The notes under the pieces: generated by a model | What the model was told of the DNA's origin: nothing | Database searches by the model: none | Seen by the model: the letters and a program-made list of their open reading frames with translations, nothing else | Made by a program: the position numbers and the translations under genes | Shown: positions 1 through 20,250 of the stretch, piece after piece | Position numbering within the stretch: the first letter of the stretch is position 1 | How the letters are laid out: the number at the start of each line of letters is the position of its first letter | Assembly: GCF_000349325.1 (NCBI RefSeq) | Contig: NC_020504.1 | Span: 4,932,053-4,996,052, forward strand | From: Streptomyces davaonensis JCM 4913 | Lineage (GTDB): Bacteria; Actinomycetota; Actinomycetes; Streptomycetales; Streptomycetaceae | Reading direction: 5' to 3' | Length of the DNA stretch: 64,000 bases

Positions 1-753
1 CGGGGTCCGCAGGACATGCCAGGGCAGGGTGGCCGGGGCCAGGCCGGTCTCGTGCGCGTACGCCTCGACCAGGCGGTCGGCGTAGTCGTCGCCGGGGTTG
101 TTCGCGTGCTCCAGGTAGCCGGCCAAGGTGCCTGCGGCTCCGCCCAGTTCGACCGGGAGGGCGGCAGCGAGCGCGGCCGTGCGGCGGCGGGCCTCGGTCA
201 CCAGGTGCAGCCAGCCCGCCGCCTTCAGGCCGAAGGTGGTGGGCACCGCGTGCAGGGTGAGGGTGCGACCGGCCATCGGGGTGGCCCGGTGGGTGCGGGC
301 CAGCCGCTCCAGGGCGGCCGCGCACCGGTCGAGGTCGGCCCGGATCAGCACGCCGGCCCGGCGGACGACCAGCATGGTGGCCGTGTCCAGGATGTCCTGG
401 CTGGTGGAGCCGCGGTGCACGTACTCGGCGGCGGCCGGGTCCTCGGCGGCGACCACGGCGGTCAGCGCCTTCACGAACCCCACGACGGGGTTGGCCGTCT
501 CGCGGGACGCGCGGGCCAGCGCGACCAGGTCGAGCCGCTCGGGTCGGGCGGCCTCGACGATCGCCGCCGCCGCGGACTCGGGCACGGTGCCCAGCCGGGC
601 CTGCGCCCGCACGAGCGCGGTCTCGGCCTCGACCATGGCCGCGAGCCAGGCCGCGTCCGACACCGCCGCCTCCACGGGCGTACCCGCGCGCACCGGGGAC
701 AGCAGCCCGGAGTCCACCACGGCGGCGAGCTCCGGGGAGAGTTGGAAGGTCAT
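1..753 (-). CDS. creD: Nitrosuccinate lyase, CreD-like (partial, C-terminus beyond window)
   Basis: The 251 visible codons encode the N-terminal part of an aspartase/fumarase-superfamily lyase, of the subgroup that also contains 3-carboxymuconate cycloisomerase. The signatures HRGSTSQDILDTA (about residues 113-125) and AGRTLTLHAVPTTFGLKAAG are clear. CreD-type members split nitrosuccinate into fumarate and nitrous acid. I choose that role over ordinary muconate cycloisomerase because the next gene is a CreE-type flavoenzyme. The start is the ATG at 753, with a 77-nt gap to the stop of the upstream gene. It lies at the downstream end of the long minus-strand biosynthetic set. The conserved C-terminal signature loop of the superfamily is not in the window. 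Confidence 0.72.
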   Translation of the reverse strand, partial: MTFQLSPELAAVVDSGLLSPVRAGTPVEAAVSDAAWLAAMVEAETALVRAQARLGTVPESAAAAIVEAARPERLDLVALARASRETANPVVGFVKALTAVVAAEDPAAAEYVHRGSTSQDILDTATMLVVRRAGVLIRADLDRCAAALERLARTHRATPMAGRTLTLHAVPTTFGLKAAGWLHLVTEARRRTAALAAALPVELGGAAGTLAGYLEHANNPGDDYADRLVEAYAHETGLAPATLPWHVLRTP

Positions 754-830
754 GGTGGTCCTCTTCCGGTGAGGTTCAGGGGCGCCCGCGGCCCGCACCA
801 CAGGGCACGGACCGCGGGCCGTACGTCACA

Positions 831-2783
831 TCAGGCGGCTGTCCGCTCCAGGCTGTCCCGCTGTTCCAGCACCGCCCCCAGCGCCGCCTGCGCGATCGCG
901 TCGGAGTCGGTCAGGGTGACCGAGTTGACGCCGGGCCGGATGCCCGCCGCCGTCACCCAGTGCACCGACTCCGTGGGGACGCCGAAGGCGTACCGGCGCG
1001 GGTGCGGGCGCCGGGCGGCGTCCAGGAGCTGGAAGGGGCGCGGGGTGACCGCGACGCCCTCGGTGTAGATCCAGGTGCCGTTGCGGGTGGCGATCCGGTG
1101 CGTGGCGCACTGGCCGCTGTCCAGCAGCCGCCGCAGCAGCGGGTCCTCGGTGCGGCTGAGCGTGATGTCGGGCAGCCGCGCCTCGATCAGCACCTCGGCG
1201 CTGATCCGAGAGCCCGGCACCAGCGGCGAGTGGGCGTGGAAGCCCTGCCGGTCGACGTCGACGCGCAGGTCGGGGCCGATGATGTGCAGCACGCCCGCCT
1301 CGATCAGCGCGGCCGCCTCCTCGATGCGGGACGCGGGCGGCCCGATGGACAGGAACGCGTTCAGCGGCGTGTACCAGCGGTCCAGGTGCTCGCGGTGGGA
1401 GTCGCCGTGCAGCCCGCCGTGGTCGACGACCAGCCGGATCTCGTTGCGCAGATCGCGCAGCACGTCGAGGGCCGCCTTGAGCGGACCGCTCACATTGCCG
1501 CTGCGGGCCTCGGCGACGTCCTCGCGCAGATGGTCCAGGAGCCAGGCCGTGAAGTCCTCCGGGCTGCCGAACTCCTGGTCCTGGTACGGCCGGGAGAGCC
1601 GGTCCCAGTCCCAGCGGTCCTTCTCCCCGATCTCGTACGCGTCGAGCACCGTCTCCTCCGCGGACGTGCCCGGCAGCGCGCGCAGGAAGGCCCGCTGGAA
1701 CGACTCCGCGCGGTCGCCGCGGCCGCGGGCGGTCAGCAGCGTCCGGTAGTAGACGGTCTCGACCTCCTTGGCGACCAGCGGCCACACGTCCCGCTGGAAG
1801 TCGGCGCCGTCGGTGCCGCGCGCGGCCTGCAGGCGGGCGATCCGAGCCGGGGTGAGCAGCAGCGGCTCGTGCCGGCCGTGCGGGCCTTTCTCGTTCTCGC
1901 CGCGCGCCTGGTAGGGCACGCCGCGCCGGGAGCCGGCGTACATCCGGGGCTCGCGGCCGGAGGGCAGGTAGACCAGGCGGCCGTAGACGCGGGTGAAGCT
2001 GCCGCCGCGGCCGGTGGTGAGCAGGGCCATGTAGTCGAAGAAGTTCAGGCCGAGGCCGCGCAGCAGCACGGGCTGGCCCGGCTGGACGCACTCCAGTTCG
2101 GTGTCGGCGGGGTTGGCGGGCGGGAGGTGGGTGTGGCCGTGCTCGCGGGCCAGTGCGGCGAACTGCTCCTCCACCGCGGTCGGCCGGGCGGGCAGGTGGC
2201 CCTGGGACAGGACGACCGCGTCGAGGTGCTCCAGGACCTCGCCGTCCTCCAACGTGACCCGCTGGCGCGGCGGATGACCGGTGGCGAGGGCCACGGCCTC
2301 GTCGTCCAGGGCGACCGCGCGGGACCGGTGCCAGGTGACGGTCACGCAGTCCGGGGCGCCCGCGACCGTACGGTCGAAGGCCCAGCGCAAGTAGTGGCCG
2401 TAGAAGGCGCGGGTGGGGTAGGTGTCGGGGCCCAACGCGCGGGCCTCGTCGAGGACTTGGTCGGGGTAGTGGCCGGGGATGTCCCCGGCGAGCAGGGCCT
2501 CGGCCCAGGCGTGCAGGCTGGGGCCCGGTTCCAGGGGGCCGGTCAGCTCGACGCTGGCGTCGGTGAACACCGAGATCTGTCCGGCCACCGTGTTCATCAG
2601 CAGGTGCGCGGACTGGCTGGTGCGCCAGACCTGGCCGGCGCCGGGCGCGTGCGGGTCGACGACGTGGATGCCGATCGCGGTGTCGGGGGCGGCGGCACGG
2701 GCGGCGGCGCAGAGCCGCTCGATCACGGAGAGACCCCGCGGTCCCGCGCCGATCACGCACACGGTGTGCTGTCTGGTGGTCAT
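831..2783 (-). CDS. creE: FAD/NAD(P)-binding aspartate N-oxygenase, CreE-like
   Basis: This 650-aa protein begins with an FAD-binding Rossmann motif (VCVIGAGPRGLSVIERL) of the FAD-NAD(P)-binding family seen in CreE. CreE oxidises the amino group of L-aspartate in NADPH-dependent steps to nitrosuccinate, which the neighbouring lyase cleaves to nitrous acid. A later glycine-rich stretch (PVLLRGLGLNFFDYMALL) fits the family. The ATG at 2783 overlaps the stop of the phosphopantetheinyl transferase gene as ATGA, so the genes are probably translationally coupled. Family membership is read from sequence; the aspartate substrate is inferred from pairing with the lyase. The alternative is another N-hydroxylating or uncharacterised flavoenzyme of the same family. 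Confidence 0.75.
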   Translation of the reverse strand: MTTRQHTVCVIGAGPRGLSVIERLCAAARAAAPDTAIGIHVVDPHAPGAGQVWRTSQSAHLLMNTVAGQISVFTDASVELTGPLEPGPSLHAWAEALLAGDIPGHYPDQVLDEARALGPDTYPTRAFYGHYLRWAFDRTVAGAPDCVTVTWHRSRAVALDDEAVALATGHPPRQRVTLEDGEVLEHLDAVVLSQGHLPARPTAVEEQFAALAREHGHTHLPPANPADTELECVQPGQPVLLRGLGLNFFDYMALLTTGRGGSFTRVYGRLVYLPSGREPRMYAGSRRGVPYQARGENEKGPHGRHEPLLLTPARIARLQAARGTDGADFQRDVWPLVAKEVETVYYRTLLTARGRGDRAESFQRAFLRALPGTSAEETVLDAYEIGEKDRWDWDRLSRPYQDQEFGSPEDFTAWLLDHLREDVAEARSGNVSGPLKAALDVLRDLRNEIRLVVDHGGLHGDSHREHLDRWYTPLNAFLSIGPPASRIEEAAALIEAGVLHIIGPDLRVDVDRQGFHAHSPLVPGSRISAEVLIEARLPDITLSRTEDPLLRRLLDSGQCATHRIATRNGTWIYTEGVAVTPRPFQLLDAARRPHPRRYAFGVPTESVHWVTAAGIRPGVNSVTLTDSDAIAQAALGAVLEQRDSLERTAA

Positions 2784-3601
2784 GTCTGCTGTCCGTCCTG
2801 CGGGATAGAGGGATCGAGGCGGGGTTCGGGGCGAGCACGATCGGGGCCGGTACGTTCGGGGCGGGTACGGGAATCGGGCGGCCGGCGCAGGGCGACCGCC
2901 GCGATCATGCGGCTGCCGACCACGGCACAGCGGCCCTCGGTGCCGGGCGCCGGGCCGCGCGCCACGCGCAGCAGGACCGGCTCGCCCGGGTCCCGCCCGG
3001 CCCGCGGCTCCTCCCACTCCAGGTCGACGGACTGGAAGGAGACGCCGTCCTGGGTGTCCGGCGGCAGCGCCTTGTACAGGGCCTCCTTGACGCAGAACAG
3101 CCGCAGCACGGCACGGGCCGGGTCGGGCACGTCGCGCAGCCGCTCGCGCTCCTCGGGGGTGCACACGTAGTGCAGGGCGGAGAGCAACTCCGCGCCCGTC
3201 TCCAGGGGTTCGATGTCGATGCCGAGCCCGACGCCGTCGGCGGGCCCGGTCACGCACAGGGCGACCCGGTTGGTGTGGCTGAGCGAACCGGCCACTCCGT
3301 ACGGCCAGCTCGGCGCCCCGCGCGCGTCCGCGCTCAGCCACCGGGGCATCCCGGTCAGTGCGGCGGTGGCGCGGGCCGCGGCGAGCCGGCCCGCGGTGAA
3401 GGTCTCGCGGCGCAGCGGGGCGGTGTAGCCGCGCAGCAACCGCCGGGTGGGCTCGGGCAGTTGGGCGAAATCCAGCTCGCCGGTGTGCGCCTGCGCCGCG
3501 ATCACGCGCGGCTCGAACAGGGCCGTCACCGCGGCCAGGTCGACGGGCTCGGGGTCACCGCTCGCCGACACCGACACCGGGGCCGGGAGCACGGCGCTCA
3601 C
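2780..3601 (-). CDS. Sfp/EntD-type 4'-phosphopantetheinyl transferase
   Basis: This 273-aa protein carries the three family motifs: GSLSHT, GIDIEP (Mg-binding acidic residues) and the FCVKEALYK block. Such enzymes move phosphopantetheine from CoA to the serine of carrier proteins. Two small carrier proteins lie in the same gene set, at 9171-9428 and 14392-14673, and are the natural clients. The GTG start at 3601 overlaps the anthranilate synthase stop as GTGA, and its own stop overlaps the CreE start, so it sits tightly inside the operon. The last 40 residues or so are Pro/Arg-rich and probably disordered. Confidence 0.88.
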   Translation of the reverse strand: MSAVLPAPVSVSASGDPEPVDLAAVTALFEPRVIAAQAHTGELDFAQLPEPTRRLLRGYTAPLRRETFTAGRLAAARATAALTGMPRWLSADARGAPSWPYGVAGSLSHTNRVALCVTGPADGVGLGIDIEPLETGAELLSALHYVCTPEERERLRDVPDPARAVLRLFCVKEALYKALPPDTQDGVSFQSVDLEWEEPRAGRDPGEPVLLRVARGPAPGTEGRCAVVGSRMIAAVALRRPPDSRTRPERTGPDRARPEPRLDPSIPQDGQQT

Positions 3602-5811
3602 CGCAGGGCTCCGATCGGGGTACGGGTCAGGTGGGCGACCGCGTTGTGTACGACCTGGCGGCCGGTGTGCCCGGCGTTCGTCATGATCGACTCGGGGTGG
3701 AACTGGACCGCGGCGAACTGGTGCCGGGGCGCCTCGACCGCCATCGCGACCCGCCCGTCCTCGGTGGCCGCCGTGACCCGCAGGGAGTCGGGCAGGGTGG
3801 CCGGGTCGGCGTAGAGGGAGTGGTAGCGGCCCACGGTGAAGCTCTTGGGCAGCCCGTCCAGCAGCATCGAGTCGGCCTCGGTGCGCCGGACCCGGGAGGG
3901 CTTGCCGTGCACCGGCTCGGGCAGCACACCGAGGGTGCCGCCGAGGTACTCGACGATGCCCTGGAGGCCGAGGCAGACGCCGAAGACGGGGATACCGAGC
4001 CGCTCGGCCTCGGCAAGGGTGGCGGCGGTGCCGAAGTCGGACGGGGTGCCGGGGCCCGGCGAGAGCACCACCAGGTCGGGGCGCTGCTCCGCCAGCAGGG
4101 GCAGATGACCGCCGCTGCGGTACGTCCCGACCTCGGCGCCGGTCTCGCGCAGATACCCGGCGAGGCAGTGCACGAAGGAGTCACGGTGGTCGACGAGCAG
4201 GATCCGGCGTCCGGCACCGGGCCCCTCGTCGACGCTCACCCGGGCCGGGCGTACGACCGCGGCGGGCTCGTCCAGGACGCCGAGCAGGGCCTTCGCCTTC
4301 AGCTCGGTCTCCAGCTCCTCGTCCTCGGGCGAGGAGTCGTGCAGCAGGGTGGCGCCGGCCCGGACCGTGGCCACGCCGTCGTGGAGGTGGATGGTGCGCA
4401 GGGTCAGGACGGTGTCGAGGCCGCCGTCGAAGCCGATCCGGCCCACCGCTCCCCCGTACCAGCGGCGCGGGGAGCGCTCGTGCCGCTCGATGAACTCGAT
4501 CGCGGAGAGCTTGGGCGCCCCGGTGACGGTGACCGCCCACAGGTGGGCGAGGAAGGCGTCCAGGGCGTCCCGGTCGGGGCGCAGTACGCCCTCGACGCGG
4601 TCGACGGTGTGGATGAGGGTGGAGTACTTCTCGATCCGGCGGCGGGCGGTGACCTGGACGGTGCCGGGCAGGCAGACCCGGGACTTGTCGTTGCGGTCGA
4701 CGTCCGTGCACATGGTCAACTCGTGCTCGTCCTTGGAGGAGTTGAGCAGCGTACGGATCCGCTCGGCGTCCTCCAGGGCGTCCCGGCCGCGGGCGATGGT
4801 GCCGCTGATCGGGGAGGTCTCCACCAGGGCGCCGGCCGCGCCGCGCGGGGTGACCCGGACGAACATCTCCGGGGAGGCGCCGACCAGGTACTCGTCCTGG
4901 GCGAGGTTCATCAGCAGGCTGTGCGGGGCGGGGTTGCGCTCGCGCAGGGTGCGGAAGAGCCGGGACGGCGGGCGCTGGACGACGCGGTGGAAGGACTGGC
5001 TGGGCACGACCTCGAACAGGTCGCCGGAGCGGAAGAGCGGACGGGCCTGCTCCACGACCCGGGCGTACTCGCCGGGCGCGTGGTCCCGCTCGGGGGCCTC
5101 GGTGGCGGGCACGAAGGGGCGGGCCGGGGTGGCGCGGTCGAGGCCGTCGGTGCGGGAGGCGCCGACGCGGAACTCGTAGTCGTGCCGGATCGCCTCATCG
5201 GCCTTGAGGTCGAGTTCGTAGACGGTGTCGGGCAGGTGCAGCACCATGTCCCGGTCCGCGGCGCCCCGCTGCTGGCCGAGCGCCACCGGGTCGACCTGGA
5301 AGATCAGGTCGTAGCCGAAGGCGCCGTAGAGGCCGAGCAGTTGGTCGTCGGGGAGGGCGAGCCCCTCGACGACGGACCTGATCGCGGCGAAGACGCCGAC
5401 CTGACGGGTGCGGTCCTCCTCGGCGAAGGTGCCGTCCGGGACGCCGCCGCGCACGCGCAGGGTGTCACCGTCGGCCTCGGCGCGACCGCCGGGTCCGATC
5501 GCGCGGGAGAACAGTGCCAGGAGCGCGGGGAGCAGGACTCGGCCGCGGGCGTTGAGGGCGGTGGCCCGTATCTCCTGGCCGGTCGCGGTGATCTCCACCG
5601 GCGGGTCGGTGTAGCCGATGATCCGGTCCGGGCCGCGGAACAGCAGCATGCCGCGGCGCTCGTCGAGGGTGTCCTCCAGGGCGGTACGCAGAGCGGCGGC
5701 GGAGCCGAGGAGCTCGGTGGTGCGGACGATCTCGACTCCGACGGGCGTGGTCCACCGCCCGGACGGGGCTGCCCGACCGGTACGCGGCCGGGAGGTTTCC
5801 AGCTGGGGCAT
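3598..5811 (-). CDS. trpEG: Fused anthranilate synthase TrpE(G)
   Basis: This 737-aa fusion makes anthranilate from chorismate and glutamine. An N-terminal chorismate-utilising domain (about 1-520) carries DLFEVVPSQSFHR, PISGTIARG and VTVTGAPKLSAIEF. A C-terminal class I glutamine amidotransferase domain (about 535-737) carries the nucleophile in VFGVCLGLQG and the His/Glu pair in FHPES. Length and order match rhizobial/actinobacterial TrpE(G) fusions rather than shorter PhzE-type ADIC synthases, although ADIC synthesis cannot be excluded by eye. The ATG at 5811 is preceded by a GAAAGGA-type ribosome site. The 196-nt gap upstream has no Trp-rich leader peptide that I can see. It supplies the aromatic precursor of the cluster. 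Confidence 0.88.
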   Translation of the reverse strand: MPQLETSRPRTGRAAPSGRWTTPVGVEIVRTTELLGSAAALRTALEDTLDERRGMLLFRGPDRIIGYTDPPVEITATGQEIRATALNARGRVLLPALLALFSRAIGPGGRAEADGDTLRVRGGVPDGTFAEEDRTRQVGVFAAIRSVVEGLALPDDQLLGLYGAFGYDLIFQVDPVALGQQRGAADRDMVLHLPDTVYELDLKADEAIRHDYEFRVGASRTDGLDRATPARPFVPATEAPERDHAPGEYARVVEQARPLFRSGDLFEVVPSQSFHRVVQRPPSRLFRTLRERNPAPHSLLMNLAQDEYLVGASPEMFVRVTPRGAAGALVETSPISGTIARGRDALEDAERIRTLLNSSKDEHELTMCTDVDRNDKSRVCLPGTVQVTARRRIEKYSTLIHTVDRVEGVLRPDRDALDAFLAHLWAVTVTGAPKLSAIEFIERHERSPRRWYGGAVGRIGFDGGLDTVLTLRTIHLHDGVATVRAGATLLHDSSPEDEELETELKAKALLGVLDEPAAVVRPARVSVDEGPGAGRRILLVDHRDSFVHCLAGYLRETGAEVGTYRSGGHLPLLAEQRPDLVVLSPGPGTPSDFGTAATLAEAERLGIPVFGVCLGLQGIVEYLGGTLGVLPEPVHGKPSRVRRTEADSMLLDGLPKSFTVGRYHSLYADPATLPDSLRVTAATEDGRVAMAVEAPRHQFAAVQFHPESIMTNAGHTGRQVVHNAVAHLTRTPIGALR

Positions 5812-6007
5812 CCCCCAAATTCCTTTCTCGAACCCGGTGATGACCCGGGGCTGGGAGCATTCGGCCCGCGGCGGGGACGCGGGGGTCGGGCGCGGGTGGT
5901 GACGTGGGGGCTTTACCGGCGCCTGGGTGGCCGTGGGTCGGGTGCTGCCCCGGCGTCGGACTGCCGCTGCGCCCACCCGTTCCGCCCTGCGGCACGACTG
6001 CCCGCAG

Positions 6008-7627
6008 CTACGGCAGAGGGGACTCCGTCGTCCAGACCTCGGCGGCGCGGCCTGAGCGGACGTGGGTCCAGCCCTGGCTCAGTTCGTTCGGGCGGCACAC
6101 GTAGGCGGTGCGTGTGCCGGTTGCCGTCAGGCGTTCGGCCAGCGCCGAGCGGGCGGTGCGGTCGGCGGCGGGGAGTTCTGTGCCCGGAGCGACGGCGACG
6201 ACATCGACGGGTACGGCGGCGGCCAGCGCGGCGACCGAGTCGACCAAGCGGGCCACCGGCTCCTCCGCGGGCGCCGGGGCCCGGACCAGCAACCCGAGGG
6301 CGGCGTCGGGCCGTTCGAACCGCAGCGCCCGCAGCCGCTCACCGGCTTCTCGTACGGCCGTGGCGTCGGCGTCCGTCGTGATCAGCGCCGGGCTGTCGTG
6401 ACCGAGGAGCACCGCGGTGCCGGGGCGCTCGGCGGACTCGACCAGCGTGGGTACCGGACCGTCCGGCAGCGCCGTCACCCCGTCGCCGATCTTCGCGAGT
6501 TGCGGATCGAGCCGCAGCAGCACGTCCGCGGAGGACTGGCCGGTGCGGGTCAGCAGGCGGAGCATAAGCGTGGCCGGGTCCAGGGACCGGTGTTCCTCGG
6601 CGTGGGACCACATCCTCTGGCTCGCCCAGGCGGCCTGCTGCACGGACTCCACGATCGGCCGACGGTTCGCCTCGTACGCGGTGAGGGTCGCGTCGAGGTC
6701 GTCGCCCTCCTCGTGCTCGGCGAGCCGCCGGGCCAGTTCGACCGCGTCCTCCAGGGCCATGGTGGTGCCCGAGCCGACGGAGAAGTGCGCGGTGTGGACG
6801 GCGTCGCCGAGCCCCACCAGGCGGCCGGTGGACCAGCGGGCGCTGGAGATCTTCGGGAACATCAGCCAGCGCGAGCCGTTGCCGAGCAGCTTCGCCCCGC
6901 GCAGATGCTCGGCGAACACCTCGGCGCAGAACTCCATGGCCTGCTCGTCGTTCCACCCGGGCGGCTTGGTGCTGCCCTCCGTGAAACCGGACCGCTGCCA
7001 CGCCTCCTCGCCCAGCTCGACCAGGAACGTCGAGCGGTCCGGCCCGTACGGGTACACGTGGGCGCCGACCGGGCCGTACTCGCTGTCCGCGAAGAGGAAC
7101 GTCATCGCGTCGAAGGCACGGTCCACCGCGAACCAGGCGTACCGCCCCGAGCCGGGGGCGACCTCGGCCCCGAACTCGCCGGCGTACGCGGTCCGGGTGC
7201 GGCTGCCGGAGCCGTCCGCCGCGACCACCACGTCGTAGCGCCCGAGCAGGTCGGCGGCGTCGGCCTCGGTGTCGAAGTGCAGCCGGGCACCGGCCTGTTC
7301 CGCCAGCTCGGTCATCGCGGTGAGCAGGGCGCGCCGTTCGACCGCGGCGAAACCGTGGCCGGAGGAGGTGATCCGCTCACCGTCGCGGCGCACCTCCACG
7401 TCGTCCCAGCGGGCGCCGCGGTCCAGCAGGGCGGCGACCACATCGGGGGCGGCGCGGCGCAGCCGGGCCAGGCTGAAGCGGGAGAAGACGACTCCGAAGC
7501 CGTACGTGGCACCGGCCGGGCTGCGTTCGAAGACATCGACCTCGTGGCCGCCGAGGCGGCGCAGCAGCAGGGCCAGCATCAGACCGCCGGGCCCCGCGCC
7601 TATGCAGGCGACTCGCACGGCACTCAC
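6008..7627 (-). CDS. FAD-dependent aryl-thioester hydroxylase (anthraniloyl/salicylyl 5-hydroxylase type)
   Basis: This 539-aa class A flavoprotein monooxygenase has the FAD motif IGAGPGGLMLALLLRR at its N-terminus, the family segment ATYGFGVVFS, and the second FAD motif GLGDAVHTAHFSVGSG. It resembles salicylyl-CoA 5-hydroxylase and anthraniloyl-CoA monooxygenase, which act on aromatic acids bound as thioesters. The GTG start at 7627 overlaps the stop of the aryl ligase gene as GTGA, placing it directly with a ligase and a carrier protein. I infer hydroxylation of carrier- or CoA-bound anthranilate, probably at C5. The C-terminal 200 residues or so are less familiar, with a thioredoxin-like look seen in related hydroxylases. 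Confidence 0.78.
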   Translation of the reverse strand: MSAVRVACIGAGPGGLMLALLLRRLGGHEVDVFERSPAGATYGFGVVFSRFSLARLRRAAPDVVAALLDRGARWDDVEVRRDGERITSSGHGFAAVERRALLTAMTELAEQAGARLHFDTEADAADLLGRYDVVVAADGSGSRTRTAYAGEFGAEVAPGSGRYAWFAVDRAFDAMTFLFADSEYGPVGAHVYPYGPDRSTFLVELGEEAWQRSGFTEGSTKPPGWNDEQAMEFCAEVFAEHLRGAKLLGNGSRWLMFPKISSARWSTGRLVGLGDAVHTAHFSVGSGTTMALEDAVELARRLAEHEEGDDLDATLTAYEANRRPIVESVQQAAWASQRMWSHAEEHRSLDPATLMLRLLTRTGQSSADVLLRLDPQLAKIGDGVTALPDGPVPTLVESAERPGTAVLLGHDSPALITTDADATAVREAGERLRALRFERPDAALGLLVRAPAPAEEPVARLVDSVAALAAAVPVDVVAVAPGTELPAADRTARSALAERLTATGTRTAYVCRPNELSQGWTHVRSGRAAEVWTTESPLP

Positions 7628-9171
7628 TCCCCCCGCTCGCCGGGCGGCACCGGGGCGGCGCCCGGCATCCCGTCGGCGAACCGCTCCCGCAGCTTGCGGC
7701 GCAGGATCTTGCCGGCCGCGCTGCGCGGGATCTCGGACACGAACTCGATGCGCACCGGCCGCTTGTAGCTGGCCAGTTCGCCGACGCAGGCCTTCAACAG
7801 ACCTGCGGCGGACACCTCCTCGCCCTCGGCGACCACGAAGGCGACGGGGACCTCGCCCCACTCCTCCGAGGGCGCGCCCACGACGGCCGCGTCGGCGACA
7901 CCGCGCTGGGCACCGAGGACCCGCTCGATCTCGGCCGGGTAGACGTTCTGGCCGCCGCGGATGAGCACGTCGTTGATGCGGTCGACGAGGTAGAGGTAGC
8001 CGTCGGCGTCGGAGTAGCCGAGGTCACCGGTGCGCAGCCAGCCGTCGCGCAGGGTGGACTCGGTGGCGGTGGGGTTGCGCCAGTAGCCGCGCATCAGACC
8101 GTCGCCGCGGACGCAGACCTCGCCGATCTCGCCGGGGGGCAGCGCGCCGCCCTCCTTGTCCTGGACCTCGATGTGGCAGCCGGGCAGCATCCGCCCGGCC
8201 GAGCGCAGCCGGAGCTCCCGGGCCGCGGCGTCGGCGCCGTGGTCCTCGGCCCCGCCGAAGAGCACGGTGGCGATGGGGCCGCCGCCCTCGGTGATGCCGT
8301 AGATCCCGCGGAACGGGCAGGGGAAGCGCTCAAGGGACTCGCGCAGCAGCTCCTCCGGCATGGGGGCGCCGCCGAACATGACGTCGACAAGGGTGGACAG
8401 GTCGGTGGCGTCGAACGCCTTGGTGCGCAGCGCGAAGCGGACCATGGACGGCACCACGAAGGCGCGGGTCGCGCCGCGCTGCTCGGCCTCCGCGAGGAAG
8501 CGCTGCGGGGCGAACTCCCGCTGGAGGACGAGGGTTCCGCCGGCGGCGAGCAGGGCCAGGCCGATCACCATCGAGCCGTGGAACAGCGGGCACGGGTTGA
8601 GCATCACGTCGTCAGCGGTGAACCGGGCCTCGGCGGCCAGCGCGGTGTAACAGGCGGACACCGAACGGTGGGTGACGGCGACGCCCTTGGCCCGGCCGGT
8701 GGTGGCCGAGGTGTGCAGGATCGCGAACAGGTCGTCCATCTGCGGCAGCGGCAGCGCCCGGCGCTCGGTGGCGAGCATCTCCGCGTAGGCGGGGCTGTCC
8801 AGGGCGATCCGCCAGCCGTCGCCGAAGGCGTCCCCGAGCCGGTCCAGTACGCCCTGCTCGGCGATCACGCCGCGCGGCGCGGAGTTGGAGACGACGTGCT
8901 CGACCTCGGGGGCCGGGAAGGAGTGGTTGACGGGGCAGACGATCGCTCCGGCCTTGCCGGCCGCGATGTACAGCTCCAGCACCTCGACCCGGTTGGGCGA
9001 GCTGACGACGAGGCGCTCACCGGGGCCGATCCCGCGGTCGATCAGCGCGGCGGCCAACGCGTCGGTACGTTCGTCCAGTTCACGCCAGGTGAGCGAGAGC
9101 CGCTCGTCGGCGAGGGCGAGTGCGTCGGGGCGCTGTCCGGCGTGCCGCCGGACGAAGTGGGCCATCCACAT
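7624..9171 (-). CDS. Aryl acid AMP-ligase (ANL superfamily)
   Basis: This 515-aa adenylating enzyme has all core motifs: A3 HTSATTGRAKGV (about 153-164, with SA for the usual SG), A5 YGITEGGG, A7 DGWLRTGDLG, the hinge DRINDVLIRGGQNVYPAEIE and the A10 lysine in SAAGKILRR. It should activate a carboxylic acid with ATP and pass it to a thiol. The carrier-protein gene lies directly upstream, with stop and start sharing one base (TGATG), and the aryl-thioester hydroxylase gene directly downstream. I infer loading of anthranilate onto that carrier. A second in-frame ATG two codons in is possible. Substrate specificity cannot be read by eye. Confidence 0.8.
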   Translation of the reverse strand: MWMAHFVRRHAGQRPDALALADERLSLTWRELDERTDALAAALIDRGIGPGERLVVSSPNRVEVLELYIAAGKAGAIVCPVNHSFPAPEVEHVVSNSAPRGVIAEQGVLDRLGDAFGDGWRIALDSPAYAEMLATERRALPLPQMDDLFAILHTSATTGRAKGVAVTHRSVSACYTALAAEARFTADDVMLNPCPLFHGSMVIGLALLAAGGTLVLQREFAPQRFLAEAEQRGATRAFVVPSMVRFALRTKAFDATDLSTLVDVMFGGAPMPEELLRESLERFPCPFRGIYGITEGGGPIATVLFGGAEDHGADAAARELRLRSAGRMLPGCHIEVQDKEGGALPPGEIGEVCVRGDGLMRGYWRNPTATESTLRDGWLRTGDLGYSDADGYLYLVDRINDVLIRGGQNVYPAEIERVLGAQRGVADAAVVGAPSEEWGEVPVAFVVAEGEEVSAAGLLKACVGELASYKRPVRIEFVSEIPRSAAGKILRRKLRERFADGMPGAAPVPPGERGE

Positions 9172-9428
9172 CAGGCGGCCTCGCTCACGTCTGCGGAGCG
9201 CGCGGTCAGCACCTGGTCGATGCCGGCGACGGTGTGCAGCGCGGTCAACTCGTCGTCGTCGAGCGGATTGCCGGTCTGCTCCTCGATGGCGAGCGCGAGC
9301 CGGATCAGGTCGCCGGAGTTCAGCCCGGCCGTCGTCAGATCGTCGTCACGGCCGATGCCGTCGAGCAGTTCGGGCAGGTCGACGAACTCCAGCAGGAGCG
9401 CGTGGCCCGGGGTGAGCTGGTCGGACAT
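9171..9428 (-). CDS. Acyl carrier protein 1
   Basis: This 85-aa acidic protein has carrier-protein features: a helix start DDDLTTAGLNSGDLIRLALA in which the serine of NSGDL takes the place of the canonical DSL phosphopantetheine site. It directly precedes the aryl ligase gene (one-base overlap), so it probably carries the activated aromatic acid while the flavin hydroxylase acts. Asn in place of the usual Asp before the serine is a modest deviation. An 84-nt gap separates it from the downstream end of the exporter gene. The transferase at 2780-3601 is the likely activator. Confidence 0.82.
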   Translation of the reverse strand: MSDQLTPGHALLLEFVDLPELLDGIGRDDDLTTAGLNSGDLIRLALAIEEQTGNPLDDDELTALHTVAGIDQVLTARSADVSEAA

Positions 9429-9512: not shown

Positions 9513-11765
9513 TCAGCGACCGACGTCCGCGGGCTCACGCCCGGTGTGCACGGTCTTGTTGTCGGCGGCCACGGGCTCGTCCTCGCCCTCGCTCAACCCG
9601 AACCGCTCATAGACCCGGGTCAGCGGGCGGGGAGCCCACCAGTTGTAGCGGCCGGCCATCCGCATGAAGGCCGGGACCAGGACGCCCCGCACGAGGGTTG
9701 CGTCCATCAGGACCGCCAGTGCCAGGCCGAGGCCCAGCAGCTTCATGTAGGTGATGCCGGAGACCAGGAAGGAGGCGAAGACCAGGGCGATCAGCGCGGC
9801 GGCCGCGGTCACGAGACCGCCCGTGCGCTGGAGGCCCAGGGCCACGGCCCGCGTGTTGTCGCCGTTGCGGTCGTACTCCTCCTTGATCCGCGAGAGCAGG
9901 AACACCTCGTAGTCCATGGAGAGCCCGAAGGCCACGCAGAACATCATGATCGGGGTCGTCGCGACGATGCCGCCGGTGACGGTGAAGTCCCCGGTCAGCC
10001 ACATCAGGTTGCCGTCCTGGAAGACCCAGACCATGGCACCGAAGGTGGCGGTGAGGCTCAGCAGGTTCAGCACGAACGCCTTCACCGGCATCAACACGCT
10101 GCCCGTCATCAGGAACAGCAGCACGAACGTGGAGACGGCGATCAGCAGCAGCGCCCACGGCATCCGGTCGGTCAGCGAGGTCATCGTGTCCTTGAAGGAG
10201 GCGGCGGTGCCCGCGACCTTCACGTCCTCGAACGGCGCCTTCGCGTCCCGTACGTCGACGACCAGGTCCTGGCCCTCGTCCGTGTAGGAGCCGACCTCCG
10301 GGATCACCGAGAGCCAGGTGCCCTCGCCCTTCTCGTAGCGCTCGTTGATCGCGCCGGCCGGGGCGATCTGCTTGCCGTCCGTGTAGGAGCCGGTCAGGGC
10401 GTCCACCCGGGCGACGTTGTCGAGCTCGGACAGGGTCTCGGCGTAGGCCGCGACCCTGGACTCGCGGTCGGCCCCGGAACCGGCGTTCTCGGCGACGACC
10501 ATGAGCGGTTCCATCTCGCGGGCCGAGTAGTCCTCGATGAGGACCGTGCCCACCTGGTGCGCCTCGGCGTCCGAGGGCAGCGTGCGCTCGTCGGCGAGGT
10601 TGAGCTTGATGCCGAGGAACGGCGAGCCGAGGAAGAGCAGGATCACGATGACACCGGTGGCCAGCGGCAGCGGCCGGCGCATCACCAGGGTGGCGAGCTT
10701 GTGCCAGAAGCCGTTCTCGACTGCCGCCGCCGGCTTCTTGCGGTTCCAGGACCACTTGTTGATCCGGGTGCCGATGACCGCGAGCAGCGCGGGCAGCAGC
10801 ACCAGGGCGGCGACCACCGCGAAGGCGACGACCGCGATACCGGCGTAGGCGAAGGAGCGCAGGAAGTACATCGGGAACAGCAGCAGCGCGGAGAGTGAGA
10901 GCGCCACGGTGATCGCCGAGTAGAGGACGGTGCGGCCGGCGGTGCGCAGGCTGGTGGCGATGGCGTCGTTGACCGCGGCGCCCTTGCCCAGTTCCTCGCG
11001 GTACCTGCTGACCACGAAGAGGCTGTAGTCGATGCCGAGGCCGAGTCCGAGTCCGGTGGTGAGGTTCATCGCGAAGACCGACACGTCGGTCAGCTCCACC
11101 AGCACCCGCAGCACACCGAGCGCGCCGATGATGGCGACGATGCCGACGGCCAGCGGCAGCAGGGCCGCGATGACCCCGCGGAAGATGAAGACGAGCAGGA
11201 TCAGGGTGAGCGGCAGCACCAGGGTCTCGGCGAGCGCCAGGTCCTCCTGGGTCTGCTCGTTCATCTCCGCGTAGGCCTCGGCGCGGCCGCCGAACTGGAT
11301 CTGGAGGCCCTCGAAGCCCTCCTCGTAGTGCGGGCGGAGCTTGGCGAGGTAGTCGTCGACCTCGTCCTCGTTGCCCTCGAGGTGCGCGAGGACGAGGGCG
11401 GAGTCGGACTTCTCGGCCTTCAGGCTGGGCGCCTTGTCCAGGGTCCAGTACGAGGCGGCCTCCTGGACGCCGTCCTCGGCGCCGAGCTTCTCGGTCAGCT
11501 CCGCGCCCTTGGCGGCGGTGTCCGGGTCGTCGACTCCCTTCGGCGTCTTCACCAGCAGCACGAGGTTGGGCTCACCGGTGCCGAACTTGTCGCTGAGGAT
11601 CGCGTTCGCCTGCGTCGACGGTGCGTCGGGCACCTCGTAACCACCGGAGGACAGCTTGCTGTTGACCGCACCGCCCAGTCCTCCGGCCACGACACAGAAG
11701 AGCAGTCCCAGCCAGAGAACCAGCTTCCGGCGGCCGGTCGCCAAGGCGGCCAGCTTGTTGAACAT
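9513..11765 (-). CDS. MMPL/RND-family transporter
   Basis: This 750-aa membrane protein shows the MmpL layout: one N-terminal membrane helix, a large outer domain (about 40-185), a block of helices with GLGLGIDYSLFVVSRYREEL, a second outer domain, then a second block with FGLSMDYEVFLLSRIKEEY. MMPL proteins export lipidic or hydrophobic metabolites using the proton gradient. Its place in the middle of the biosynthetic genes makes it the likely product exporter and self-protection factor. The ATG at 11765 follows a GGAGGAA ribosome site. An export substrate with a lipid tail would fit the family. Confidence 0.92.
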   Translation of the reverse strand: MFNKLAALATGRRKLVLWLGLLFCVVAGGLGGAVNSKLSSGGYEVPDAPSTQANAILSDKFGTGEPNLVLLVKTPKGVDDPDTAAKGAELTEKLGAEDGVQEAASYWTLDKAPSLKAEKSDSALVLAHLEGNEDEVDDYLAKLRPHYEEGFEGLQIQFGGRAEAYAEMNEQTQEDLALAETLVLPLTLILLVFIFRGVIAALLPLAVGIVAIIGALGVLRVLVELTDVSVFAMNLTTGLGLGLGIDYSLFVVSRYREELGKGAAVNDAIATSLRTAGRTVLYSAITVALSLSALLLFPMYFLRSFAYAGIAVVAFAVVAALVLLPALLAVIGTRINKWSWNRKKPAAAVENGFWHKLATLVMRRPLPLATGVIVILLFLGSPFLGIKLNLADERTLPSDAEAHQVGTVLIEDYSAREMEPLMVVAENAGSGADRESRVAAYAETLSELDNVARVDALTGSYTDGKQIAPAGAINERYEKGEGTWLSVIPEVGSYTDEGQDLVVDVRDAKAPFEDVKVAGTAASFKDTMTSLTDRMPWALLLIAVSTFVLLFLMTGSVLMPVKAFVLNLLSLTATFGAMVWVFQDGNLMWLTGDFTVTGGIVATTPIMMFCVAFGLSMDYEVFLLSRIKEEYDRNGDNTRAVALGLQRTGGLVTAAAALIALVFASFLVSGITYMKLLGLGLALAVLMDATLVRGVLVPAFMRMAGRYNWWAPRPLTRVYERFGLSEGEDEPVAADNKTVHTGREPADVGR

Positions 11766-11831: not shown

Positions 11832-12830
11832 TCAGGCGGGGGTACGGGGGACGGGGATCTGACGGCAGTCGACGCGGACGTGTCCGCCGGCCACGCAGTC
11901 GTGGTCGGCCAGCGACTCGTCGACGGACCGGTCCCAGGCAAGGAGCCGGTTGTGCACCGAACCTCGGGTGAAGTCGGCGAACTCCGGGTGGGTGGCCCGG
12001 TGGCGGGAGCCGAGGTACGCCAGTACCGGGTCCAGGAGCAGCCAGCGGCCCTCCTCGAACACCTCGGTCCAGGCGTGCTCGACCCCGATCAGACCGAGCA
12101 GGAAGCCGCGGCGGGTACGGGCGCGTACGCCCGCCTCCTCGGCCCACTGCTGCATCTGCCAGGCGGCCACGATGCAGTCCACGGTGCGGTGTTCGATGGC
12201 GGCCGCGGGACGGGACCGCAGGCCCTCGGGCACCCAGCCGTACTGGTACTCGCCGGAGACCAGCCGGTCGAGGAGGTCGTCGTGGATGCGGCGGACGGTG
12301 TCGGTGCGGGGCGCGTCCCGGTGGCCGCGGGTGGTGACGGTGGCGACCATCGAGCCGGTCTCCTCCCGCGCCCACTCGGTCAGCCGGCCCTCGTAGAGCT
12401 TGGGGGCGGGCTCGGCCGGAACCGGGATGGTGACGCAGCTGGTGCAGCCGGCGGCGTCGCAGGTGGCGGTGAGCCGGAGCCGGGTGACCCGCTCGGTCGT
12501 CCACGCCTCGGGCTGTCCGGCGGCCAGCCGCATGCACTGGCGTTCGCCCAGCTCGGCCAGGGAGCGGCCGAGGCCGGACTGGAGCCCGAGGTTCATCACG
12601 TCGTGGTAGTCGTAGCGCAGCCCGTCGGGGGTGTCCTCGGCGGGGAAGCCGGCGCCGACCAGGTTCTCCAGGACGGCCTCGTCGATGGCGAGTTCGCGGG
12701 CGGCCTCCTGGTGGGCGAGCGTGGCGACCCGGTATTCCACGGGCACCGGGACCAGCCGTTCCACCGCGGGAAGCCAGTTCGTCCAGAGTTCCGACGCCGT
12801 GGTGGTCCGGCGCGGAGCGGCAGTTGTCAT
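11832..12830 (-). CDS. Transglutaminase-like enzyme (candidate condensing acyltransferase)
   Basis: This 332-aa protein has a transglutaminase-like papain fold with a plausible Cys-His-Asp triad: Cys in RTVDCIVAAW, His in GVEHAWTEVF and Asp in WLLLDPVLAY. In natural-product clusters, homologues such as AdmF join carrier-bound acyl groups to amines, so an amide- or ester-forming role between the two carrier-bound units is attractive here. Its ATG overlaps the stop of the second ligase gene as ATGA. A Cys-rich insert (CDAAGCTSC) in the N-terminal half is unusual. A plain peptidase-like role is possible. No signal peptide is seen, so it should be cytoplasmic. Confidence 0.68.
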   Translation of the reverse strand: MTTAAPRRTTTASELWTNWLPAVERLVPVPVEYRVATLAHQEAARELAIDEAVLENLVGAGFPAEDTPDGLRYDYHDVMNLGLQSGLGRSLAELGERQCMRLAAGQPEAWTTERVTRLRLTATCDAAGCTSCVTIPVPAEPAPKLYEGRLTEWAREETGSMVATVTTRGHRDAPRTDTVRRIHDDLLDRLVSGEYQYGWVPEGLRSRPAAAIEHRTVDCIVAAWQMQQWAEEAGVRARTRRGFLLGLIGVEHAWTEVFEEGRWLLLDPVLAYLGSRHRATHPEFADFTRGSVHNRLLAWDRSVDESLADHDCVAGGHVRVDCRQIPVPRTPA

Positions 12831-14392
12831 CGTTCCTCCCCGGCCGTGGCCAGTACCGGCAGATCGCCCGCGGCGAGCCGGCGGGCCACCTCGAGGCGCT
12901 TGACCTTCCAGGTCGCGGTGTGCGGGATGTCGTCCCAGCGGCACTGCACCGGTGCGGCCAGCTCGGGCAGCCCGGCGACCGCGGCGCGCCAGGCGGCGAG
13001 GTCCAGCGGGGTGTCGCCGCGGGTGACCACCAGCGGGATGGCGGGGCCGCCGTCGGACATCGGGATGATCACGGCCTCGGTGAGCTGCGGCAGCGCTTCG
13101 AGGATGTCGTCCTCGGCCGCCAGCAGGCTCTCCACGCCGCTGCCCCGGTCCACGATCCGGTCGAACAGGTGCAGACAGCCGCGGGCGCTGACCAGGCCGT
13201 AGTCGCCCATCGCCCACCAGCCGTCGACCCGCTGGTCGGGGGAGCCGAGGTAGCTGGGGGTGACTCCGGAGGACCGGGCGAAGATCTGGCCGGGGACGCC
13301 CCTGGGGGCCTTGTCGCCCTCGTCGTCGAGGACCCGGATCTTGGTGTGGCCGAGGACTCCCCGGCCCACGCAACGGCCGTGCTCGCAGCGGCTCTTGAGC
13401 TTGTGCGACTTGACGGTGACGGGTCCGGTCTCGGTCTGGCCGTACGCCTGCATGTAGCGGGCGCCGGGCTTGGCGGCGGCGAGCAGGGTACGGATGGTGC
13501 GCGGGTGGGCGGCGTCGAAGGAGCTGACGAACAGCCGGGTCTGCGCGAACAGTTCGGGCTGCCGCTCGGCGACCTCCTCCCAGCGGATGAAGGCGTTCGG
13601 GACGGTCTCCACCACGCCCGGCTTGACCGCGGCGAGCAGCTCGGCCGCGTTCTCCGGGGCGGTGTCGGTGAGGAAGCCCAGCGGCAGGCCGAGCGCCAGG
13701 ATCGCGAGCATCCCGGACATGCAGCGGGCGTGCACCGGCGACAGGCACATCAGGTACGGGTCGCGTACCCGCAGCACCTTGCCGATGGTGATCTGCGGCC
13801 GGGCGTGCCCGGCGAAGCTGTGCACGGAGTGCAGCACCAGCTTGGGCACACCGGTCGTGCCCGAGCTGTGGGTGACCAGCTGCGGGGTGTCCTCGCGAGG
13901 CACCGCGGCGGGCGGGAACTGGCCGCGCGGGGCGTCCAGCAGGGACAGACCGTGCTCGCCGCGCTCACCGACGTACCAGCGCGGCAGCGTCGCGTCGACG
14001 GAGTCCAGCACGCCGGCCGATTCGGTGACGGCGTCGGTGAGGATGGCGGCCGGGGCGGCGCGCCCGGTCATGACGCCGAGCGCCTGGAAGCCGACGGCCG
14101 AGTGCACCAGCACCGGGACGGCGCCGATCCGGGCGCAGGCGAAGGCCAGCAGGGGGATGTCGAAGTTGGACTGCTTGACGATGAGGATGCGCTGGCCGTC
14201 GGTGATCCCGGCCCCGGCGAGCCGGGCGGCGGCCTCCTCGACGAGCTCGGCGAAGGTGGCGTAGTCGAAGCTGCGGCCCGCCTGCGGGAACAGGTCAAGG
14301 GCCTTGTCGAGGCGGATCGGCACCGAGCCGTGGCGGCGGGCGGCCTCGGCGGGGGCGGTGGCCAGCGCGAGCCGGCGGTTCACGCGAGCCAT
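12827..14392 (-). CDS. Second ANL-superfamily ligase (acyl-ACP loading or diazotase candidate)
   Basis: This 521-aa adenylating enzyme has A3 THSSGTTGVPKLVLH, A5 QAYGQTETGPV, a shortened A7 region (GWWAMGDYG) and an A10-type lysine in TATWKVKRLEV, so it appears catalytically complete. A CEHGRC insert follows A5. It overlaps the carrier-protein gene upstream (TGATG; a GTG one codon earlier is an alternative start) and the transglutaminase-like gene downstream (ATGA). Two roles fit: loading an acyl group onto carrier 2 for the reductase at 14734-15882, or, as reported for CreM/AvaA6/CmaA6-type ligase homologues in nitrous-acid clusters, ATP-dependent diazotisation of an aryl amine. Sequence alone does not decide. 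Confidence 0.72.
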   Translation of the reverse strand: MARVNRRLALATAPAEAARRHGSVPIRLDKALDLFPQAGRSFDYATFAELVEEAAARLAGAGITDGQRILIVKQSNFDIPLLAFACARIGAVPVLVHSAVGFQALGVMTGRAAPAAILTDAVTESAGVLDSVDATLPRWYVGERGEHGLSLLDAPRGQFPPAAVPREDTPQLVTHSSGTTGVPKLVLHSVHSFAGHARPQITIGKVLRVRDPYLMCLSPVHARCMSGMLAILALGLPLGFLTDTAPENAAELLAAVKPGVVETVPNAFIRWEEVAERQPELFAQTRLFVSSFDAAHPRTIRTLLAAAKPGARYMQAYGQTETGPVTVKSHKLKSRCEHGRCVGRGVLGHTKIRVLDDEGDKAPRGVPGQIFARSSGVTPSYLGSPDQRVDGWWAMGDYGLVSARGCLHLFDRIVDRGSGVESLLAAEDDILEALPQLTEAVIIPMSDGGPAIPLVVTRGDTPLDLAAWRAAVAGLPELAAPVQCRWDDIPHTATWKVKRLEVARRLAAGDLPVLATAGEER

Positions 14393-14673
14393 CACGCACC
14401 CCCCGCCTTGGCCGCACGGCGCTCCAGGTGCGCGGTGACGTGGGCGAGCAGTGCGTCGTAGGACGAGAACGCGTCGGTCGGCTCGTCCAGGTCCCACTCG
14501 ATGCCGAAGGCGTCCTCGGCGTCGGCGAGCAGCCGCATGAAGCCCGCCGACGTGAGTCCCAGGTTCCACAGCGACGCCGCACGGGCCGCCGGGTCGTCCA
14601 GCGGCAGCGGAGCGCCGACCGCGTTCTCCAGCAGGCCGCGCAGGTGCTCCGCGACCGTCGTGCTGTCGTACAT
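14392..14673 (-). CDS. Acyl carrier protein 2
   Basis: This 93-aa protein has the carrier-protein pattern LWNLGLTSAGFMRLLADAED, with the serine of TSAG as the phosphopantetheine site. It lies between the thioester reductase gene and the second ligase gene and overlaps the latter, so these three probably act together. The ATG at 14673 follows a GGAG ribosome site. It is clearly distinct in sequence from carrier 1, which supports two separately loaded building blocks. Confidence 0.82.
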   Translation of the reverse strand: MYDSTTVAEHLRGLLENAVGAPLPLDDPAARAASLWNLGLTSAGFMRLLADAEDAFGIEWDLDEPTDAFSSYDALLAHVTAHLERRAAKAGGA

Positions 14674-16060: not shown

Positions 16061-16957
16061 CTACGCGGCGCCGGTGACCGCGGTGGCGGTGTCGGCGGCG
16101 CTGCGCGCCTCCAGTTCGTGTACGAACTCGGAGACGGCCGTCTGGAAGCCCTGCGGGTCGTCGAAGAAGGGCACGTGACCGGCGCGCGGGAGGGTGATGG
16201 CCTTGCTGTCCGGGATGCGGTTGAGGGCGTCCTCGATGACGGACTCGCTCCAGGCGAAGTCGCCGTCGCCGTTGATGATCAGCGTCGGGGCGGCGAGGCG
16301 GGCGAGCTCCTCGGGGTCGTCCTCGATCTCCAGGGAGGCGAGGAGGTTCTCGCGGATGGAGCCGACGGAGAGCAGGGACAGGAAGTTGTCCTTGAGCGCC
16401 AGGTAGGCCGCGGTGCCGCCCTCGTGGATCATCTGGTCCGGGAAGACCAGCGGGTAGAGGTGGCCGAACAGCTGCTGGGTGCCGCCGGACTCCAGGCTCG
16501 CCAGCCAGGAGCGGCTGACCAGCTTGCGGCGCAGGGTGCCGTTGGGCGAGAACGCCGGGCCCACCAGGACCAGGCCGGCCACGCGCTCGGGGTACTTCAG
16601 CGCGAACTCGCGGGCGATGAGGGTGGATATGGACGTGCCGACCAGGTAGGTCTTCTCGATGCCGAGGTGGTCCAGCAGCCGGCGCACGTCCTCGACGTGG
16701 TCCATGAACTTGACCGGCTCGGGGCCCGGGTTGGAGGCGCCCTGGTTGCGCAGGTCGTAGTGGACGAGCCGGAAGTCGGGGGCCAGTTCGGTGGTGAAGT
16801 TCCGCCAGATCGGGCTGACGATGTAGAAGTTGTTGAGCAGGGTCACCGCCGGGCCTTCGCCGCTGTCCTCGTAGTACAGCTCCCCGCCGCCGGGCAGGGC
16901 GAGTGCGGAGTGGTTGAGGTAGCGGACATCGAGCTGGCCGAACTGCTGGTCCGTCAT
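16061..16957 (-). CDS. Alpha/beta hydrolase of the biosynthetic cluster
   Basis: This 298-aa alpha/beta hydrolase has a nucleophile elbow VGTSIST (Ser flanked G-T-S-I-S), an Asp in INGDGDF and a His in RAGHVPFF, so a Ser-Asp-His triad is plausible. The usual HG oxyanion-hole motif after strand 3 is replaced by LLNNFY. It is the first gene downstream of the SARP gene, and the candidate SARP site lies 55-83 nt upstream of its ATG. Possible roles are release of the product from a carrier, ester formation or editing. The substrate is not predictable. Confidence 0.75.
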   Translation of the reverse strand: MTDQQFGQLDVRYLNHSALALPGGGELYYEDSGEGPAVTLLNNFYIVSPIWRNFTTELAPDFRLVHYDLRNQGASNPGPEPVKFMDHVEDVRRLLDHLGIEKTYLVGTSISTLIAREFALKYPERVAGLVLVGPAFSPNGTLRRKLVSRSWLASLESGGTQQLFGHLYPLVFPDQMIHEGGTAAYLALKDNFLSLLSVGSIRENLLASLEIEDDPEELARLAAPTLIINGDGDFAWSESVIEDALNRIPDSKAITLPRAGHVPFFDDPQGFQTAVSEFVHELEARSAADTATAVTGAA

Positions 16958-20199: not shown

Positions 20200-20250
20200 C
20201 GCGTACCCCCTGTTTCCGATGTCGGAGCTCTCGATGAGGCACCACCAGGG

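Follow-up and report, generated by a model that had tools for sequence, protein, structure and literature searches.

In Streptomyces tasikensis, the aha gene cluster provides the half-pathway that makes and diazotizes alkyl 5-hydroxyanthranilate (AHA), one of the two halves of the tasikamides. A review covering this system describes Aha1 as a CreD homolog, Aha2 as a CreE homolog, and Aha11 as the diazotase, and states that the diazotized product (diazo-AHA) couples non-enzymatically with a cyclic pentapeptide assembled by the tsk nonribosomal peptide synthetase (NRPS) cluster, both nitrogens being kept (PMC11705231). Aha6 (UMM61384.1) is given as the predicted anthranilate 5-hydroxylase in the excerpt available of PMC10478498. 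Few enzymes diazotize arylamines under mild conditions, and they are wanted as tools. Here we analyzed a stretch of 64,000 nucleotides from Streptomyces davaonensis JCM 4913 (hereafter the window), which corresponds to bases 4932053-4996052 of contig C1 in the 9.56 Mb genome. Comparisons at the sequence level provide good support for the view that the minus-strand operon located at the left end of the window is an aha-type cluster, which would produce and diazotize AHA as it is done for the tasikamides.

Sequences and Gene Assignment

Genes were called on the basis of the reading frame and the third-position guanine-cytosine (GC) content, the starts being picked by eye from the translations and the ends being given by the stops of the open reading frames (ORFs) and the protein lengths. 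They were assigned from matches with Pfam, NCBIfam, and Protein Data Bank (PDB) entries. Two samples of genomes were used, consisting of 392 genomes of the same genus and 394 genomes drawn from the whole class. The window's own genome is referred to below as G000, S. cupreus as G001, and Streptomyces sp. YS415 as G003, and three other genomes are referred to as G034, G157, and G162.

Relationship of the Hydroxylase with Aha6

The gene at 6008..7627 (minus strand, 539 aa) encodes an FAD-dependent hydroxylase, the proposed anthraniloyl-thioester 5-hydroxylase, which was found in a protein search to be 85% identical, with 99% coverage, to P0124, "Aha6 [Streptomyces tasikensis]". In the maximum-likelihood tree, which includes 52 of the 53 proteins found (P0174, consisting of 348 aa, was too short and was excluded), this hydroxylase and Aha6 belong to one starred clade of nine, with a support of 99/94. 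This high identity and the shared clade indicate that the cluster is of the aha type. The salicylyl-CoA 5-hydroxylase model NF006101 matched the protein with 335 bits, in the N-terminal half of the model only and below the cut-off of 1078.

Hydroxylases of the Aha6 type showing more than 60% identity were present in 4 of the 392 same-genus genomes (G000, G162, G034, and G157), the others not exceeding 48% among the matches listed, and in the class-wide sample the window's own genome stood alone at E ≤ 1e-110. In three Streptomyces loci out of the 16 retrieved, the hydroxylase is 82-84% identical, while the other 13 are distant; relatives recorded in the protein database also come from Kitasatospora, Nonomuraea, and metagenomes. 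The first-pass annotation of this DNA had suggested that a nitrosuccinate module feeds the diazotization of a 5-hydroxyanthranilate ester in a tasikamide-like way, and this suggestion is supported by the likeness to Aha6, the shared clade, and the presence of the CreM-type ligase described below. The gene combination had also been thought to be possibly new, but it matches the published aha type.

The Nitrite-Forming Module

The gene encoding the CreD-type nitrosuccinate lyase (minus strand, 474 aa) occupies positions 1..753, and since its C-terminal end lies beyond the left edge of the window, the whole gene extends from -671 to 753, the remainder being located at 4931381-4932052 in the genome. 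The full-length protein scored 797 bits on the nitrosuccinate-lyase equivalog model NF052556 (cut-off 650) and 580 bits versus the solved CreD structure 5xny, the best cycloisomerase reaching only 288 bits. The CreE-type flavoenzyme (831..2783, minus strand, 650 aa), which is the proposed L-aspartate N-hydroxylase (nitrosuccinate synthase), carries the PF13454 domain, and its sole PDB match at E ≤ 0.001 was 8cp2 (685 bits over 629 residues), which we take to be an aspartate N-hydroxylase, the PDB title being merely "FAD-binding protein". In line with what had been proposed at first sight, the NF052556, 5xny, and 8cp2 scores place CreD and CreE with the nitrosuccinate enzymes and not with the ornithine oxygenases or the muconate cycloisomerases, and both enzymes of the aspartate-nitrosuccinate pathway are predicted to be encoded here.

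Related genes occur elsewhere in the genome. A second CreE/CreD/CreM set was identified at 8.89-8.91 Mb (G000:C1:8890000-8914500) in a tetrahydroxynaphthalene-type meroterpenoid cluster, where its neighbors encode a type III polyketide synthase (PKS), a cupin, a DegT aminotransferase, the aromatic prenyltransferase PTase_Orf2, and enzymes of the mevalonate pathway. A third lyase (G000:C1:1885964-1887250), which scored 513 bits on the nitrosuccinate-lyase model and is therefore under the cut-off, is perhaps a catabolic carboxymuconate cycloisomerase.

A Candidate Diazotase

Without a diazotase candidate, which the first-pass annotation had not seen, the nitrite module alone would not imply the formation of an N-N bond. 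The gene at 12827..14392 (minus strand, 521 aa) encodes a CreM-type AMP ligase (PF00501, 154.5 bits), and from the family of this protein and its place in the operon, we infer that it is the ATP-dependent arylamine diazotase. Among the best 120 of the 455 related proteins (8000 candidates having been scored), 30 showed 55-90% identity covering 91% or more of the ligase, one was a 57% identical fragment, and the remainder were 35-43% identical. The adenylation motifs, along with E315 and K490 (numbered on a 515-aa form, i.e., six below the 521-aa protein), are invariant across the 27 ligase rows analyzed.

Members of the CreM family (E ≤ 1e-60) were detected in 138 of the 392 same-genus genomes, and a CreD gene scoring at least 647 bits was present within 30 kb of 54 of the 150 CreM-family places among the matches listed, whereas the random expectation for one CreD within 30 kb of a CreM-family place is about 0.7%. 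These counts are based on the 150 CreM places listed (down to about 6e-84, with a threshold of 1e-60), 124 CreD places (rows below 647 bits being excluded), and 150 aryl-ligase places listed. In a control on 61 genomes, 10 of 22 CreM-family places versus 2 of 150 aryl-ligase-family places were found near CreD, again among the matches listed. Both of these aryl-ligase-family places are aha loci, and when the aha loci are left out, the figures become 8 of 20 and 0 of 148, respectively.

Conservation of the Gene Block

When 24 proteins of the window were used as tblastn queries, 21 of them, from the DUF2252 protein on the left flank to the FabF-like gene ending at 28284, were found to form one block in G001, G003, and G162, with 82-98% identity. 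Since the block is kept in three other species, the grouping of these genes is not due to chance. The last three queries (a 485-aa protein, a response regulator, and a kinase) had no match in these three genomes, so that the right-hand limit of the block falls before them. The DI166 contig, consisting of only 14,820 bases, matches 10 of the 24 proteins. The 4'-phosphopantetheinyl transferase (PPTase) was not among the 24 queries; at the DNA level, the stretch encoding it shows 87% identity to its counterparts in the three close species, and no DNA matching it was found in G034.

The copy carried by G034 has diverged: 12 of the 24 proteins, from CreD to the SARP-family regulator, were matched at 52-75% identity, and the copy lacks acyl carrier protein 1 (ACP1; the gap was inspected directly), the AraC-family regulator, the 3-deoxy-D-arabino-heptulosonate 7-phosphate (DAHP) synthase, and the butyrolactone cassette. 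A second locus in the same genome (G034:C1:3028000-3037200) encodes a DAHP synthase, a fused anthranilate synthase (TrpEG), an aryl ligase, ACP1, and a CreM-type ligase at 68-73% identity. At this second locus, there was no match to CreE or to the hydroxylase, and neither a reductase domain (R domain) nor the second acyl carrier protein (ACP2) is present; the sole CreD match is a 28% identical gene of the lyase superfamily located about 28 kb off, and the closest CreD scoring 647 bits or more lies at a distance of 364 kb. The aha-like cluster of G034 and its ACP1-bearing second locus may work together.

Organization of the Operon

The minus-strand operon spans the window coordinates from about -671 to 17000, and the regulators and the DAHP synthase continue up to 22138. 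As transcribed, its genes encode the alpha/beta hydrolase, the R-domain reductase, ACP2, the CreM-type ligase, the transglutaminase-like protein, the MMPL exporter, ACP1, the aryl ligase, the hydroxylase, TrpEG, the PPTase, CreE, and CreD, in that order, and at six of the junctions adjacent genes share 1 or 4 bases. The gene set had at first been placed at 1-9428, with a DAHP synthase nearby: all the genes named were indeed found, but this set was incomplete, since it runs on to about 17000 with the MMPL, transglutaminase-like, CreM-type ligase, ACP2, thioester reductase, and alpha/beta hydrolase genes, and the PPTase gene at 2780-3601 had been passed over.

All the genes of the operon that have not yet been described are located on the minus strand. 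The PPTase (2780..3601, 273 aa), which matched PF17837 (53.9 bits) and PF01648 (52.8 bits) over the cut-off, is encoded by a gene overlapping each of its neighbors by 4 bases. The fused anthranilate synthase TrpE-TrpG (3598..5811, 737 aa) scored 935 bits on NF010081, the cut-off being 645. The aryl adenylating ligase (7624..9171, 515 aa), for which anthranilate is the proposed substrate, matched PF00501 (263 bits) and PF13193, and it is followed by ACP1 (9171..9428, 85 aa; PF00550, 25.3 bits), in which the position of the motif points to Ser38. The MMPL-family exporter (9513..11765, 750 aa) was assigned from PF03176 (272 bits), and the transglutaminase-like protein (11832..12830, 332 aa), which is the proposed acyltransferase forming the alkyl ester, from PF01841 (25.4 bits, cut-off 23). 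ACP2 (14392..14673, 93 aa) scored 19.9 bits on PF00550, just below the cut-off of 20.8, and is kept in the relatives, as is the alpha/beta hydrolase (16061..16957, 298 aa; PF00561). Between these two lies the gene of the stand-alone thioester reductase, or R domain (14734..15882, 382 aa; PF07993, 141 bits), the proposed source of the fatty alcohol, the best PDB match of which is MxaA with 67 bits.

Upstream of the operon, the genes encoding a SARP-family regulator (17124..19064; PF03704 and PF00931), an AraC-family regulator (19261..20256; PF12833), and a class II DAHP synthase (20378..22138; TIGR01358, 707 bits, cut-off 615) are all on the minus strand. They are followed by a gamma-butyrolactone signaling cassette (22624..26816), consisting of an ScbR-type receptor (minus strand), AfsA (plus), an SDR protein (minus), and an epimerase-type reductase (plus), which was assigned from NF041196 (215 bits, over the cut-off of 150), PF03756, PF01370, and PF13561. 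On the right, the conserved block ends with a FabF-like ketosynthase (27013..28284, plus strand), which scored 426 bits on NF005589 (cut-off 387) and 435 bits on TIGR03150, below the cut-off of 494.

Further to the right, three features of the window can be mentioned. A 485-aa ORF at 28411-29868 has no Pfam match, stands beside the two-component pair, and is unmatched in the three related loci. The GC content falls locally to 0.575 at 36001-38000, near HTH/IrrE-type and DprA-like genes, in what is possibly acquired DNA. Lastly, a 648-aa ORF at 56873-58819 shows a coding-like third-position GC but no Pfam match at 1e-5, and is located upstream of FhaA-like and PP2C genes.

Proposed Pathway

The reactions proposed here and their order are deduced from the gene identities, the synteny, and the homology with Aha6, the roles attributed to ACP2, the R domain, and the transglutaminase-like protein being especially conjectural. 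The DAHP synthase and TrpEG would provide anthranilate, which the aryl ligase would load onto ACP1, itself activated by the cluster's own PPTase, and the Aha6-like flavoenzyme would then hydroxylate the anthraniloyl thioester at C5. The R domain might reduce a fatty acyl thioester, perhaps carried by ACP2, to the alcohol, and the transglutaminase-like enzyme might move the hydroxyanthraniloyl group to this fatty alcohol, yielding AHA. CreE and CreD would convert aspartate into nitrite, and the CreM-type ligase would use ATP and this nitrite to diazotize the amine, giving diazo-AHA. Because the 5-hydroxyl group is para to the amine, diazo-AHA is drawn as a para-quinone diazide, and the hydroxylase would therefore make the diazo compound more stable, in the way that the ortho hydroxyl acts in cremeomycin. 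The resulting lipophilic para-quinone diazide would be exported by the MMPL protein.

The R domain, the transglutaminase-like protein, ACP2, and the MMPL protein are kept across the carriers examined, and residues C217, H250, and D265 of the transglutaminase-like protein (330-aa form numbering) are invariant in 28 rows. Tasikamides A-C differ by CH2 units, which is what would be expected of a variable fatty alkyl group. We hold the reading of this locus as an aha-type cluster, in which nitrite and the ligase would give rise to diazo-AHA, to be very probable.

Several points weigh against this route. The ligase scored 54 bits on the AvaA6 diazotase equivalog model NF058622, the cut-off of which is 975, and gave a higher score of 119 bits, also far below the cut-off, on a general acyl-CoA ligase model. 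Its correspondence to Aha11, judged from its family and its place, is putative. For 96 of the 150 CreM-family places listed, no CreD scoring 647 bits or more lay within 30 kb, and some part of these cases can be explained by broken assemblies. The predicted-fold matches of the transglutaminase-like protein were modest. The hydroxylase role of Aha6 is itself only a prediction in the accessible part of the published work (PMC10478498), and no product of this cluster is known from S. davaonensis JCM 4913.

Possible Coupling Partners

If the proposed route holds, diazo-AHA may have various fates. S. davaonensis might make the tasikamides proper, by means of a Japp-Klingemann reaction between diazo-AHA and the beta-keto aldehyde cyclic pentapeptide produced by a separate tsk NRPS, and the 85% identity with Aha6 and the 30 condensation-domain places distributed among several loci of the genome are both in favor of this idea. 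The DNA of these places was compared with that of the loci bearing condensation domains in three close carriers, the pieces showing more than 78% identity over more than 1200 bases being taken to be orthologous. Orthologous pieces amounted to 9 of 25 in G162, 2 of 17 in G001, and 3 of 19 in G003, and a further piece in G001 showed 81% identity over only 887 bases. Diverged copies escape a comparison of this kind; two of the genomes are draft assemblies; and as the four carriers are related, the sharing may reflect their ancestry.

Six of the nine pieces in G162 belong to a large NRPS, two to a PKS-NRPS hybrid at 6578 kb, and one to a single-domain gene. The large NRPS (6221 aa, G000:C1:8423464-8442129), which has five condensation-domain places and 87% DNA identity to its G162 counterpart, was considered as a tsk partner and rejected. 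Its surroundings (G000:C1:8417060-8447056) include genes for an ornithine oxygenase, a formyl transferase, a FecCD permease, and a binding protein, and neighbors of this kind suggest a hydroxamate siderophore system. The hybrid (G000:C1:6578000-6588235) carries ketosynthase, acyltransferase, and luciferase-like monooxygenase domains together with two condensation and two adenylation domains. It is the only NRPS system found to be common to all four close carriers, and it is present in 10 of 121 same-genus genomes, including the window's own. The aha carrier G034, which apparently belongs to this 121-genome draw according to the numbering of the handles, is not among the matches, so that the hybrid does not seem to be an obligate partner; G157 and G162 were probably outside the draw.

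The idea that the strain makes the tasikamides proper therefore seems unlikely to us: the sole large NRPS found to be shared with the complete carrier G162 has the appearance of a siderophore system, and the only system found in the four carriers has two adenylation domains, although the DNA comparison is blind to diverged copies. A shared pentapeptide NRPS of the tasikamide type was not evident in the four carriers, as judged from DNA comparisons among the carriers and not against the tsk sequences. Since the aha cluster persists across species with its own exporter and regulators and no shared pentapeptide NRPS was found, it can be tentatively suggested that diazo-AHA may either be a lipophilic quinone diazide that stands on its own or serve as a shared electrophilic tag, joined to a different partner in each strain, and the PKS-NRPS hybrid is a possible alternative coupling partner.

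The main chemical rival to the retention of both nitrogens is a process of the kind described for the ava and cma clusters, in which the diazo group serves as a leaving group, giving a final product without any N-N bond. These pathways share the CreE/CreD/CreM set, according to the accessible text of PMC10777205, in which AvaA7 is also likened to the NADPH-dependent sugar epimerases, and the window encodes epimerase-superfamily reductases. In addition, the second CreD/CreE/CreM locus of the genome is of the naphthoquinone type, which is said to use reductive deamination: a diazo-forming enzyme is reported to be conserved in the furaquinocin, naphterpin, and furanonaphthoquinone clusters, where the deamination follows (PMC12670698, excerpt). 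The CreE/CreD/CreM trio is therefore no guarantee of an N-N product. We nevertheless regard deamination as quite improbable in the case of the aha-type locus, because the R domain resembles a thioester reductase, the epimerase-type gene belongs to the butyrolactone cassette, and the aha route of S. tasikensis retains both nitrogens in the available account (PMC11705231). Lastly, it is very unlikely that the nitrite is intended for nitration or N-nitrosation and that ACP2 receives a fatty acid from the AMP ligase, even if the ligase gene adjoins that of ACP2 and general fatty-acid ligase models are its top NCBIfam matches (far below the cut-off), since the ligase family is enriched beside CreD genes and the second locus of G034 pairs a CreM-type copy with TrpEG, the aryl ligase, and ACP1, but without any R domain or ACP2.

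Comparison with Known Systems

A conserved and complete aha-type operon, in which a PPTase and two carrier proteins are accompanied by a transglutaminase-like candidate for ester formation, makes it possible to assign the steps in a testable way, and raises the question of diazo-AHA as an end product and of its coupling outside S. tasikensis. No report combining at least three of the terms anthranilate, diazotase, Streptomyces, and quinone diazide was found in the literature searched, which also yielded no useful precedent for a transglutaminase acting as an acyltransferase.

The locus resembles the aha cluster of S. tasikensis in its CreD and CreE homologs, its Aha6-type hydroxylase, and its CreM-type ligase, the sequence comparison covering Aha6 alone. 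CreD and CreE are adjacent at the end of the operon, as implied by the aha numbering, and five gene steps separate the hydroxylase from the CreM-type ligase, as they do in aha if the numbering follows the gene order. The gap between CreE and the hydroxylase holds two genes here (PPTase and TrpEG), whereas it holds three in aha according to the published numbering.

To our knowledge, the cremeomycin (cre) cluster has neither a fatty ester branch nor a hydroxylase of this kind. It is similar to the present one in that nitrite derived from aspartate and a CreM-type ligase act on an aminohydroxybenzoate, but the substrate is 3-amino-2-hydroxy-4-methoxybenzoate and the product an ortho-diazoquinone, as described in the accessible part of PMC11705231. 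The penzonemycin (pzm) cluster likewise includes a DAHP synthase, an anthranilate synthase, and CreD, CreE, and CreM homologs, but there 3-hydroxyanthranilate is formed via an isochorismatase and a dehydrogenase (PMC9323291, excerpt), whereas hydroxylation at C5 of a thioester is proposed here. The avenalumic acid (ava) and p-coumaric acid (cma) clusters share with this locus CreE, CreD, an ATP-dependent diazotase, an aryl-ACP ligase, and carrier proteins, and differ from it in their 3-amino-4-hydroxybenzoic acid (3,4-AHBA) substrate, their type II PKS, and AvaA7, which strips the diazo group, in the text available of PMC10777205.

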